A stretch of 64,000 bases of DNA, taken from NCBI GenBank assembly GCA_947455025.1, contig CANGLU010000005.1, forward strand, positions 1 through 64,000, read 5' to 3'. The position numbers were made by a program, and so were the translations under genes. Of this stretch, positions 35,820 through 42,393 are shown one piece after another; position 1 is the first letter of the stretch, and the number at the start of each line of letters is the position of its first letter. Below the pieces are notes generated by a model that worked only from the letters and a program-made list of their open reading frames with translations, did not search any database and was not told where the DNA came from. This DNA comes from Hyphomicrobiales bacterium (GTDB lineage Bacteria; Pseudomonadota; Alphaproteobacteria; Rhizobiales; Beijerinckiaceae).

Positions 35820-37212
<1,393 letters not shown>

Positions 37213-37479: not shown

Positions 37480-40400
37480 ATGGCTACGCAGAAAAAAGTT
37501 TCGGATTCGGCAGAAGCGGCCCTCTCGGCAATCGAAGAGGCGCTTAATCTCTCCATTAATGGCTCGACTGCCGATGCCATGGAGGACACGCTGACCGATG
37601 GCTCGGCATCCTCAAAAACGCGTATGCCGAGGACCGAAGCCGGTTCCAGTGAAGCCACACCGTCGTCTCGGACCTCGGATACCCCCGCGCGTCGAGAGCG
37701 CCCGCCGGTCGACCGCTCCCGCTCGGACGACGGTCCGCGTTCCGTTCCAGGCCAACCGGCCAATGATGACCGCCGCGCCGTTGGTGAAATTCTGCAAGCT
37801 TTGCAAGCCCAGTCCTCCCGCCGCGCCTATCTTATTGCGGCTATTGCATCCGTCGTTTGGCTTGCTTTCGCCGGATATGCGTTCTGGGCAACGGTCGATT
37901 TGGTATCGGAAGCCGGAACAGGACTTTTCAGCCAAGGCATCAAGACTGTTCTCCCCTATTTGGCTTTTGCCAGCGCACTTCCAATCATTGTGTTCTTTGC
38001 ACTCGCTTTCGCCTCGGTTCGCGCGCGTGAAATGCAGGTCGTAGCGCAATCCATGGCGCAAGTTGCTATGCGCCTTGCCGAACCTGAAGGTTCAAGCGCT
38101 GAAGCCGTCGTTAGCCTATCCCAAGTCGTGCGCCGTGAAGTGGCTGCCATGGGCGACGGCATGGAGCGCGCCGTTGCGCGTGCCAGCGAACTCGAAACCA
38201 TGGTGCACAATGAAATCGCGACGCTTGAGCGCGCCTATGGACAGAATGAAATCCGTATACGTGCGTTGATCGACGAGTTAGCGCTGCAGCGCGACGCCAT
38301 TTCGACCAATGCCGATCAAATTCGCTCATCCATTCTAACAACCCATGAACATTTGGGCCGTGAAATCGATACGGCCATGAACCGTATCACCTCGCTTGTT
38401 GAAGATGCAGGCCAGAAGGTTGCGTTTGCGATTGATTCAAAAACCGGCAGCATTGCAACAACACTCGGTCGCACCGGTGAGTCATTGATCAGCATCTTGA
38501 CCGACAAGGGTGATGATCTGCTGCGGAATTTGGGCAATGCGAATGACTCGATCACGGGTCGCCTGACCCATGTCGGCGAAAGCATCGTTACCACGCTTTC
38601 GAACAAAGCCGATGCGGTTGCCGAAAAACTGACATCAACCGGCACGCATTTGACGACCGAGCTCGTGTCGCGCGCCGAAGACATGGTTCAAGCCATTGAA
38701 TTTTCAGCCGAAAAAGCCGGATCAAAAATCGCTGATGGTTCATCAACATTTGCCGCCAATATTCTGAGTTCGGGCGAAGAAATTCGAAGCGCATTGGCCC
38801 GCCAATCCGAAGCGATTGAGCGCACCTTTGATGATACGGCAACCCGCCTCTCCATTATTATGGATGAAAAACTATCCGAGTCCCGCGCCGTATTCGCGGA
38901 AGGCTTGGGCGATATTTCGAGCACGGTGACCTCGCATGCAGAGCGGATGAGAGATGATTTCAGCCGCGAAGCTGAAACAATTCGTTCGCGCATGACGGAA
39001 GCCGCTGGTGGCCTGATTGACGAATTATCGTCCGAGACAAATCGTCTGGGCAGCGTGCTTGCCGAGCGTTCTTCGGCGATCCAATCCACGGTTGAAGGCG
39101 CAGCGCAAAAGCTTGATTCAAGCCTATCCGTACACCTCACGCGCATCGACGGCAGCCTTATCGACGGCGGCACCTCGATTGACAACAAGCTCAATGGTCA
39201 CATCAACCGGATTGAGACAAACCTTCAAACGCTGAGCGAACGGCTCGACACCAAACTCGGCGTTCATGCCGACCGGATCGAGACCAATCTCGGACGGGCT
39301 ACGACCGATATCGATGCGCGCCTTGGCGGACACCTTAGCCGTATCGAAAATGGCCTTACCGAAACCGGAAAGACCATTGATGCAACGTTGCATAACCGCG
39401 TTGAAGCCCTATCGAAAACACTCGAAATGGGCGCTCTGGCGGTTGACGAAACCATGGGTCGCCGGTCTGACGCGATTGAGCGCACTTTGTCCGACCACGT
39501 CACGACACTTGAGTCCAAGATTACGAGTGCAAGCGAGTCCTTCACCGGCATGATCGGTGAACGCGTCGCTGCCGTTTCAGCCTCGTTTATGACGGGTGCC
39601 AATTTGCTTGAAACGAGCCTGTCGCGGAACGTTGAACATATTGAATCCAATCTTGCAGGCTATGCGACGCGTATCGACCAATCGATCGGAAGCCGCGTCG
39701 CATCGCTCGAAGCAACCATCCGCGATGGCGCCACAACGCTCGACCGGAACCTTTCGAGCTATCTGGGCGAAATCACTGCGACGCTTGATCAAGGCGGCGC
39801 GCGGATCAATTCAACACTTTCAGGCCAAATTGAAGCCTTTGAGAAGACCGTCATCGTTAAGGGTGGCGCGCTCAGCGAAACGCTTTATCGCCGCTTGTCT
39901 GACTTCCAGACGAATGTTCTGGACCGCAGCAGCGATATCAATGTCGCCATTACCGATAACCTTACAAAACTTGAACAGGTTCTCGAAACCAATGGCAGCG
40001 TATTGGCCGAACGGATTGAGAAAAACACAACACAATTCACCTCAACGATCGAAGCTCGTCTGGGTGAAGTCGCCCATCTGTTCTCGACCGAAGGTAAAGC
40101 GCTGTCTGATCGACTGTCGGAACAGGCTAAGAATGCCGCTGGCATTATTGAGCATCAGCTTACCGCCATTGAGGAAAATTCACGCTTGAAGAGCATTGCA
40201 GTTGCCGAAGGCATCGACGCGATGTTCGCCCGCGTTGATCAAGGCATTGCGCAACGGACGACCGCCCTCGTTGATGCGATGGCCGATAGAGCCGCCGATA
40301 TTGAAAACACGCTTTCAATCAGCAATTCAGCCATTGGCGCAACCATTGAAGCCAAGACCGAAGATCTCGGTCGTGTCATGACGGAGCGCGCCGAGCGCGT

Positions 40401-42393
40401 CACGCAGACGCTGGCGGTGCGTGCGACGGAAATCAACGAAATCCTTGGCGAACGCGCGCTGGAAATTGCAGGCACACTTGACGGACAGGTTCGTCATTTT
40501 GAAGACAATATCGTTGCCCGTCTTGAAACGATTGGCACGGTCATTGGCACCCAAAGCGAACATTTTGGCGAAACGCTCAAAGGTCAAACGGAAGCGATTT
40601 CAAGCACGCTCGATAGCGTCATCGGCCAGCTTTCGACAGCGCTCGATACGCATGGCACAGGCTTGATCGAGAATTTGCGTTCGCACGCGTCGAATGTAGC
40701 CCACACCATCACCGAAGTTGGCCAAACGGCCGCCCGCTCGCTCACCGATGCCACGTCGCAAATTCAATCGGAAACGATTGTTACCTTGCAGAAATTGGCA
40801 GATGCGAGCCAGATTGTTCAAACGGTCGTTGGTTCCGCCAATGAAGCGATCGTTAAATTGGAAGGCACACTGGCCGACCGTATCGTCGGCCTCTCCCATG
40901 CCGGCTCCATCATTCGCGACGATGCGATGGAATCGACCAAGCTCCTCATGGAGCAGATCGAAGCCATGCGTTACGTTACAGGTGCCGGCGTCGGCGAAAC
41001 CCGCGCTCTCATCGACATGTTGGACGAACGGACGCGCGCTGTATCGTCCGTCACGCGCGAGCACGTCGATATGCTTGAATCGGCAACCGGTATGCTCACC
41101 GAGGTCGAGCAACGCCTCGGCATCGATTTGGCAACCCGTCGTGAAAACATCGAAGCCCTCACCGCGGGTCTCAATTCACGGATCAGTGACGTCCAAAATG
41201 TTGCTGATAGCTTCGCGTCCAAAATGGCCGAAGCCCTCGAAGTTGTCGAGAATAGAACGACGGCGATCAATTCGTTGATGAACGAGACATCGGCCAAGGC
41301 AGGCCAAGCGTTACGCGATCAGTTCGCAGCCGTGCGTGTTGAAGCTGACAACGAAAAAGATCGTACGCTTGATACCGTACGCGATGTGACCGCAGCGACC
41401 GTTGCAGAAATGAGCGACGTCCTTTCGAAGCTGATCCAGAAATTTGATGAGACGGCGAAAGACGTTAAAGCGACGACCGTTCAAATCGCACGCGAAATTG
41501 AAAATACGCGCGATGAAATTGCCAGCAGCCTCGTAAACCTGCCGCGTGAAGCACAAGAGCAAGGCGCTAGCTTGCGTCGTGCGATTGGTGATCAATCCCG
41601 CGCACTGAGCGAGCTATCGAGCATTCTTGTCTCGGCTGGAAGAACGACGGATGTCGCAAAGCCGCTCGCTGTTGCCCCTACGCCTGCTCCGGCTCCGGCG
41701 GTACCAGCACCTGCTCCTGCGCCCGTTCAGGCTCGGCCAGAGCCTGCCTATGTTGCTCCCGTGCAGCCGACAGCCCCAGCACCTGTTGTGCCCGTCGTGA
41801 CGGAAGTAAAAGCGCCTTCCCTGCCCGTTCGTGATATCCCGCAGGCGACACCGTCGGCGCCGGAAATCAGTATCCGCCAAGATGCGAAGCCCGCTGCAAC
41901 CGTTGATAAGAACCAACGTGCAGGATGGTTGTCTGATCTGTTGGATCGGGCATCACGCGATGAAGGAAAAGCCAGCGAAGAAGCAGAAACGGCAAAGTCC
42001 TTTGTCACACCAAAAGCACAAGCCGTGACCGAGGAACCAAAGGTTGAAGCGACGAAGGAACCTATTTCTGCGCTCTTGAGTGATATTTCAAAGCTCGTCG
42101 ATGAAACCTCCGTTGCCCGCCTGTGGAACAGCTATCTTAAAGGCGAGCCAACGGCGTTCTCACGGTCGATTTATACGCTTGAGGGCCAACGGCGCTTTGA
42201 AGAGTTGACCAATCTTCACGCTAAAGATGACCGCTTCCGGGCGAGCCTTGAGGCCTATGCCAATAAGTTCGAAACCGTTTTGCGGGACCTGACAACCTCT
42301 GACCAAGATGGTGCGATTACGCGGTCCATCTTGGCCTCTCCGGAAGGTCGTGTTTATACGGTCTTGGCCCATATCAGCCGCCGGCTCGGCTAA
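37480..42393 (+). CDS. Giant coiled-coil inner-membrane protein, probable Growth Pole Ring (GPR/RgsE) homologue
   Basis: A 1637-residue protein resembling the apolipoprotein-like Growth Pole Ring protein of Agrobacterium and RgsE of Sinorhizobium, which organise polar cell-wall growth. Order: a charged, disordered N-terminus (1-100); two membrane helices (about 116-138 and 157-179), placing both ends on the same, probably cytoplasmic, side; a helical part from about 190; an unbroken series of 22-residue repeats from about 285 to 1120, continuing less clearly to about 1300; a Pro/Ala-rich linker (about 1390-1440); and a compact C-terminal domain (about 1525-1637) with VARLWNSYLKGEPTAFSRSI. The Agrobacterium protein is longer (about 2100 residues), so this one has fewer repeats. 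It is a single gene ending at a UUCG-loop terminator. The assignment rests on architecture and general resemblance. Confidence 0.75.
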   Translation: MATQKKVSDSAEAALSAIEEALNLSINGSTADAMEDTLTDGSASSKTRMPRTEAGSSEATPSSRTSDTPARRERPPVDRSRSDDGPRSVPGQPANDDRRAVGEILQALQAQSSRRAYLIAAIASVVWLAFAGYAFWATVDLVSEAGTGLFSQGIKTVLPYLAFASALPIIVFFALAFASVRAREMQVVAQSMAQVAMRLAEPEGSSAEAVVSLSQVVRREVAAMGDGMERAVARASELETMVHNEIATLERAYGQNEIRIRALIDELALQRDAISTNADQIRSSILTTHEHLGREIDTAMNRITSLVEDAGQKVAFAIDSKTGSIATTLGRTGESLISILTDKGDDLLRNLGNANDSITGRLTHVGESIVTTLSNKADAVAEKLTSTGTHLTTELVSRAEDMVQAIEFSAEKAGSKIADGSSTFAANILSSGEEIRSALARQSEAIERTFDDTATRLSIIMDEKLSESRAVFAEGLGDISSTVTSHAERMRDDFSREAETIRSRMTEAAGGLIDELSSETNRLGSVLAERSSAIQSTVEGAAQKLDSSLSVHLTRIDGSLIDGGTSIDNKLNGHINRIETNLQTLSERLDTKLGVHADRIETNLGRATTDIDARLGGHLSRIENGLTETGKTIDATLHNRVEALSKTLEMGALAVDETMGRRSDAIERTLSDHVTTLESKITSASESFTGMIGERVAAVSASFMTGANLLETSLSRNVEHIESNLAGYATRIDQSIGSRVASLEATIRDGATTLDRNLSSYLGEITATLDQGGARINSTLSGQIEAFEKTVIVKGGALSETLYRRLSDFQTNVLDRSSDINVAITDNLTKLEQVLETNGSVLAERIEKNTTQFTSTIEARLGEVAHLFSTEGKALSDRLSEQAKNAAGIIEHQLTAIEENSRLKSIAVAEGIDAMFARVDQGIAQRTTALVDAMADRAADIENTLSISNSAIGATIEAKTEDLGRVMTERAERVTQTLAVRATEINEILGERALEIAGTLDGQVRHFEDNIVARLETIGTVIGTQSEHFGETLKGQTEAISSTLDSVIGQLSTALDTHGTGLIENLRSHASNVAHTITEVGQTAARSLTDATSQIQSETIVTLQKLADASQIVQTVVGSANEAIVKLEGTLADRIVGLSHAGSIIRDDAMESTKLLMEQIEAMRYVTGAGVGETRALIDMLDERTRAVSSVTREHVDMLESATGMLTEVEQRLGIDLATRRENIEALTAGLNSRISDVQNVADSFASKMAEALEVVENRTTAINSLMNETSAKAGQALRDQFAAVRVEADNEKDRTLDTVRDVTAATVAEMSDVLSKLIQKFDETAKDVKATTVQIAREIENTRDEIASSLVNLPREAQEQGASLRRAIGDQSRALSELSSILVSAGRTTDVAKPLAVAPTPAPAPAVPAPAPAPVQARPEPAYVAPVQPTAPAPVVPVVTEVKAPSLPVRDIPQATPSAPEISIRQDAKPAATVDKNQRAGWLSDLLDRASRDEGKASEEAETAKSFVTPKAQAVTEEPKVEATKEPISALLSDISKLVDETSVARLWNSYLKGEPTAFSRSIYTLEGQRRFEELTNLHAKDDRFRASLEAYANKFETVLRDLTTSDQDGAITRSILASPEGRVYTVLAHISRRLG
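39124..40179 (+). repeat. Core of the 22-residue (66 bp) tandem protein repeats
   Basis: Residues 549-900 divide into sixteen consecutive 22-residue units without a single insertion or deletion. Examples are LSVHLTRIDGSL..., LNGHINRIETNL..., LGVHADRIETNL... and LGGHLSRIENGL..., each with small hydrophobics at fixed positions. The same register extends backward to about residue 285 and forward to about 1120. DNA identity between units is low, so this is an old protein repeat, not a recent DNA duplication. Confidence 0.85.

Follow-up and report, generated by a model that had tools for sequence, protein, structure and literature searches.

An orthologue of the growth-pole protein GPR/RgsE with an unbroken 838-residue hendecad register in an uncultured member of the Hyphomicrobiales

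Few organisers of polar growth are known among bacteria that lack MreB, and GPR/RgsE is one of them. The window, that is, the whole stretch of 64,000 nucleotides analysed here (contig CANGLU010000005.1, positions 1 to 64,000), encodes a giant membrane protein with a strict helical repeat, and the questions are whether this protein belongs with GPR and RgsE, what kind of helix its long arm forms, and which property of the arm is kept in evolution. The source organism is uncultured; its genus, which has been found through metagenome assemblies, consists of Hyphomicrobiales with small genomes, and the titles under which near relatives are recorded (Rhizobiales MAGs, among them “AlinenLipids”, “Ki2-D1” and “M_surface_10”) suggest a lake habitat. 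The gene is present in one copy in a genome of 2.50 Mb that is 98.5% complete. An earlier, sequence-only reading had called it as a single open reading frame, and the call is correct in coordinates, strand and length (Table 1); the start codon is backed by a conserved N-terminal peptide, MATQ-K-(S/N)D--EAALSAIEEAL. The two membrane helices which that reading placed at residues 116-179 agree with the segments predicted near 118-136 and 162-180 in proteins of the same genus, and the Pro/Ala linker followed by a compact C-terminal domain is likewise supported.

Table 1. Map of the gpr/rgsE orthologue and its divergent neighbour in the window (residue numbers refer to the gene product)
Feature	Position	Strand	Evidence
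gpr/rgsE orthologue, 1637 aa	37480..42393	+	PF01442 164.7 bits; RgsE homology; ferredoxin neighbour
N-terminal 115 aa, variable after the conserved peptide; cytoplasmic by RgsE homology	37480..37824	+	
Two transmembrane helices, residues ~116-180; short periplasmic loop by RgsE homology	37825..38019	+	
Membrane-proximal helix; among the best-conserved parts	38020..38289	+	dN/dS 0.014-0.037, residues 116-270
Hendecad rod in one unbroken register, residues 271-1108, 838 aa, without Pro, Cys and Trp	38290..40803	+	
Remaining helical region, residues 1109-1379; conserved register shifts, one Pro	40804..41616	+	
Pro/Ala-rich linker; 25 Pro within residues 1380-1540	41617..42060	+	
C-terminal all-helical domain, residues 1528-1637	42061..42390	+	
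[2Fe-2S] ferredoxin (PF00111), divergent neighbour	36892..37212	-	

The match to GPR/RgsE had been made by architecture and now rests on sequence. When RgsE of S. meliloti (CP090106.1, L076:8043-14312, 2089 residues, which is the published length) is taken as the reference, the N-terminal residues 1-285 align with 39% identity (E 1e-49), the C-terminal domain with 35% (E 2e-27) and the part following the rod with 29% (E 5e-14). In addition, the divergent upstream ferredoxin is 73% identical between the window and the rgsE locus, and this shared neighbour supports positional orthology. The features of GPR/RgsE membership that are present are homology outside the repeat, two predicted N-terminal membrane helices, a long arm of the PF01442 type and the conserved gene position, of which the ferredoxin is retained and the Hpt gene is not. 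On this evidence the gene is read as the orthologue of GPR/RgsE in a species of Hyphomicrobiales that has no MreB. The function of the window protein is therefore taken from orthology: it would act at the growth pole in the source organism and, with the PhoA fusions of RgsE as the basis, the bulk of it would by homology be cytoplasmic. The reference record annotates rgsE as “kinesin”; it is named plasmid pSymB (3.72 Mb) and carries rgsE and other genes which we expect to lie on the S. meliloti chromosome.

Long cytoplasmic tails are found in ZorA-like motors too, and weak NCBIfam matches to ZorA (E 1e-7) were obtained. These matches, however, cover the tail part only and reach 30 bits against a cut-off of 190, the MotA/TolQ/ExbB domain is absent (no PF01618 match at E up to 0.1), and the protein is present throughout the order, in one copy here, with a neighbour of the RgsE type, so a motor of this kind is highly improbable. 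A family profile search gave no match of the window protein to chemoreceptor families.

Of 168 loci, 87 have an Hpt-domain gene that is arranged head-to-head with gpr (for example L076:7057-7425 and L226:3640-3933, both on the minus strand), a count that is only indicative because the length of upstream DNA varies and some near relatives are counted twice. Such neighbours occur in most Hyphomicrobiales and in Sphingomonas. In S. meliloti the Hpt gene lies between the ferredoxin gene and rgsE; the genus of the source organism has lost it, as neither the window nor any of the eight genomes of this genus that were searched contains one. The phosphorylatable His is kept in 79 of the 90 aligned Hpt sequences, and the active His is replaced in Phyllobacterium and Sphingomonas. 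A literature search for papers on the Hpt domain that also treat TipN, polarity and Caulobacter found none.

As for the arm, the sequence-only reading had described a 22-residue register that runs over more than 800 residues to about residue 1120. The register is indeed unbroken, but its unit is 11 residues, the hendecad, and it ends at residue 1108. Hydrophobic autocorrelation over residues 285-1120 shows strong peaks of r=0.58 at lag 22 and 0.54 at lag 11 (shuffle sd 0.037), and r remains at 0.53-0.58 at all multiples of 11 up to 110. Since the odd multiples of 11 score the same as the even ones, a basic unit of 22 residues was rejected; residue identity is only slightly raised at lag 22 (0.172 vs 0.145, sd 0.011), and 22 is a faint super-period at most. 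The Fourier peak of hydrophobicity lies at 3.665 residues (11/3) with a power of 122.6. An 11-state register HMM assigns residues 271-1108, corresponding to 76.2 hendecads, to one block in which no register break occurs, whereas no block exceeded 71 residues when the helical region was shuffled 200 times. The contour of the rod is about 125 nm if fully helical (838 x 0.15 nm, by arithmetic). The rod gene has no tandem repeats at the DNA level, and its dN/dS of 0.025-0.041 indicates purifying selection. An AF2 model of residues 100-1290 is nearly all helix, with helices at about 114-144 and 151-199 near the membrane segments, but its confidence is low (pLDDT 51.6, pTM 0.23), and it is therefore not used as evidence of straightness.

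What such a helix binds is suggested by the residues that occupy the register. Positions 5 and 9 of the hendecad are 95-97% LIVMFYW and position 2 is 67% A/G/S/T, and these core positions span only about 66 degrees, which makes a narrow stripe. The flanks are oppositely charged (K/R 50 : D/E 22 vs 14 : 67; Fisher p 5e-11), and the rod is net acidic (126 D/E, 81 K/R). A class A apolipoprotein helix, in contrast, presents a broad face with two basic flanks, and its 22-mers are separated by prolines. Such helices are nevertheless the published frame for the arm: Agrobacterium GPR has been proposed to be an apolipoprotein-like lipid scaffold, in which amphipathic 11/22-mer helices lie on the membrane or lipid of the growth pole (PMC8262873). 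The PF01442 (apolipoprotein A1/A4/E) match in Table 1, above the gathering score of 90, and a phmmer match to human apoA-IV (E 4e-8) speak for this scaffold. However, about ten of the 264 residues in the apoA-IV match are Pro and the 838-residue rod has none, so the proline-punctuated 22-mers of apolipoproteins are absent, and the narrow stripe, the opposite charges of the flanks and the acidic excess point the same way. Moreover, 1404 of 1406 register breaks among relatives correspond to the insertion of one to five heptads, a coiled-coil trait, and the five opposite classes total 2. Given the Pro-free rod, the flank charges and the narrow stripe, the PF01442 match is therefore best read as an 11/22 periodicity in common, and we hold the lipid scaffold to be unlikely.

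Residues 271-1108 read instead as a parallel coiled coil, the strand number and orientation of which we infer. The geometry of the stripe alone fixes no strand number, and some membrane contact may be compatible with it. Deletion of the apolipoprotein-like helices is reported to disturb shape and localisation (PMC8262873), an effect that can be explained by the coiled coil or by lipid binding. A literature search found no paper joining the terms hendecad, apolipoprotein and bacteria. The present data favour a register-locked parallel coiled-coil rod, which suggests that the family consists of stiff protein rods and not of the lipid-binding “apolipoprotein” of the earlier naming. If this is true, deletions of whole hendecads should be tolerated and off-register ones should not. 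In a published interference assay, deletions of 20 residues from predicted coiled coils, two residues out of register, disturbed the shape of the cells (PMC8262873), which agrees with this expectation but does not decide the matter.

Natural variation among relatives bears on the same point. Unbroken blocks within the genus measure 695, 750, 838 or 882 residues, all 2 mod 11 (839 in one genome), and those in other families 839, 1048, 1059, 1246 or 1653 residues, all 3 mod 11; still other families have broken rods. Distances of 756, 811 and 899 residues between anchors outside the rod, which involve no HMM, are all 8 mod 11. When pairs of 104 relatives are aligned (pairs that are not independent), the commonest gap lengths in the rod are 11 (249 cases), 7 (141), 29 (118), 22 (105), 18 (98), 4 (98) and 36 (74), and gaps of 10 and 12 are rare (6 and 9 cases), while gaps outside the rod have no preference for 11 (10: 74, 11: 66, 12: 42). 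Five of the six rod indels within the genus, placed by the aligner from residue 548 onward, are multiples of 22 (44, 22+22 and 66+22), the exception being 143 = 13 x 11. Protein length, on the other hand, ranges from 1453 to 1710 aa within the genus and from 837 to 2982 aa across the order. Length is thus wide-ranging while the register is fixed, which argues that the register behaves as if under selection, rather than the exact length; length changes therefore come as whole hendecads or heptads.

A molecular ruler, in which the number of hendecads would fix the dimensions of the ring or pole in each species, agrees with length changes in whole units only, and the contour of the rod is by arithmetic of the same order as the 200-nm GPR ring (PMC8262873). 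Conservation would then be expected among species of similar size, but lengths vary threefold in the order and by more than 15% inside a single genus, and there are lineages with 92-96% identity apart from the 29-residue blocks by which they differ. The ruler is disfavoured by this variation and appears quite unlikely. The comparison of repeat numbers with relatives, proposed in the sequence-only reading, bore out a kept register and not a fixed length: the tethered hendecad rod of that reading is supported, and a ruler of fixed length and the idea that length sets ring geometry are not. Two further observations were made among the relatives. The rods of L098, L104, L149 and L058 (G014) are built of tandem 29-, 40-, 58- or 62-residue blocks of hendecads and heptads, suggesting a fast turnover of repeat number. 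Genome G010 has a second gpr copy, L040 (G010:C70), of 1565 aa, which groups with another branch of the genus and is possibly a contaminating contig.

The C-terminal domain extends the kinship beyond the order. It has no Pfam family, and relatives were searched with the 157-aa C-terminal part as a query. Of the 41 genomes of the order, 40 carry the domain, and a profile search over a class-wide sample of 289 genomes recovered it in 114, including more than 50 families outside the order such as Sphingomonadaceae. Proteins with the domain are coiled-coil proteins with lengths of about 350-3000 aa, most of them anchored in the membrane, and the rods outside the order are also nearly proline-free. 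A 364-aa protein, L185 (G170, family f35), has two membrane helices, a weak match to the domain and almost no rod. The model of the domain has a pLDDT of 85; Foldseek gave no match with E < 0.001 and the domain profile found nothing under E 0.1 in the PDB. The best VIA-align result was 1TM9 (Z 5.6), a likeness which may be a mere common helical arrangement.

Carriers differ in whether their genomes have MreB. MreB is absent from the source genome at its 98.5% completeness, as expected with polar growth; loose-cut matches proved to be DnaK and FtsA when the open reading frames were read, plus one weak match. By a strict search, 3 of the order's 41 genomes have MreB. Of the domain-bearing genomes from the class-wide sample, 77 were tested and 74 have it. 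The median local rod period is 3.575 in MreB-positive (n=57) and 3.650 in MreB-negative (n=38) genomes, and the median protein length is 1072 and 1668 aa, respectively. In the tree every high-period rod falls into one clade (support 100/98) with intermediates inside, therefore one or few evolutionary changes are indicated. A causal link from MreB loss to rod period is not claimed, as the association is confounded with ancestry, all high-period rods lying in that clade, and the MreB-negative genomes G075 and G223, outside that clade, have a low period; the correlation is a lead, not a result.

From these observations a mechanism can be proposed. The two N-terminal membrane helices would anchor the protein in the inner membrane, as in the topology of RgsE, and the long helix would extend into the cytoplasm and pair in parallel with identical chains. 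The sequence pattern suggests pairing through a stripe of small, I/L and L residues spaced 3-4-4, the hendecad core, with the basic and acidic flanks holding the chains in register. The chains would together form a stiff rod, at least about 125 nm long, to which the conserved helical C-terminal domain is joined by the Pro/Ala linker. Several such rods may then serve as the organising scaffold of the growth pole and recruit factors of envelope synthesis, as the genetics of GPR and RgsE and the contacts of RgsE with TolQ, RgsA and RgsS suggest. This explanation as a whole (an orthologue, an anchored parallel hendecad rod, a growth-pole scaffold and a selected register) we regard as probable.

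A wider proposal is tentative, and we think it rather doubtful. The alphaproteobacteria might have a class-wide polarity scaffold that consists of a membrane hairpin, a nearly Pro-free coiled coil and the shared C-terminal domain, often lies beside Hpt and possibly includes TipN; GPR/RgsE would be its branch in the Hyphomicrobiales. In MreB-less polar growers the rod would have been lengthened and retuned from about 3.57, for which a left-handed supercoil is expected, to 3.66, for which a nearly straight or slightly right-handed one is expected, and the straight rod would take part of the shape-organising job of MreB. If there is such a family, the growth-pole scaffolds of the Rhizobiales and proteins of MreB-containing relatives have one origin.

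Among known systems, RgsE (SMc00190) of S. meliloti is like the window protein in its two N-terminal membrane helices, long Pro-poor hendecad arm, Pro-rich linker, C-terminal domain and divergent upstream ferredoxin. They differ in length (2089 vs 1637 aa) and in the rod, which in RgsE is divided by heptad-type shifts into blocks of 118, 558, 147, 58, 80, 103 and 121 aa, whereas the window protein has one block. RgsE is a membrane-anchored cytoplasmic protein with a topology verified by PhoA fusions, it contacts TolQ, RgsA and RgsS, its loss distorts cell shape, and its homologues occur in Rhizobiales with more distant ones in Emcibacterales and Rhodospirillales (PMC7327166). GPR (Atu1348) of A. 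tumefaciens, a protein of 2115 aa with PF01442 repeats and two N-terminal membrane helices, is compared with the window protein through RgsE only, to which it is 42% identical (PMC7327166) and by which it belongs to the same family. GPR is essential for polar growth and forms six foci in a 200-nm ring, an arrangement known for GPR only (PMC8262873). Sphingomonas WP_347091011.1 (75% identical to the query L169) and the class-wide relatives have the C-terminal domain of the window protein, Hpt divergent upstream and, in most family members examined, a membrane-anchored coiled coil, but those in MreB-containing genomes are shorter and their rod period is near 3.57, not 3.66. Finally, TipN of Caulobacter crescentus marks the new pole and is a membrane protein that has a large coiled coil in the cytoplasm; it is likened here by published description, GPR having been called similar or analogous to it (PMC8546619, PMC13170164, PMC4460556).
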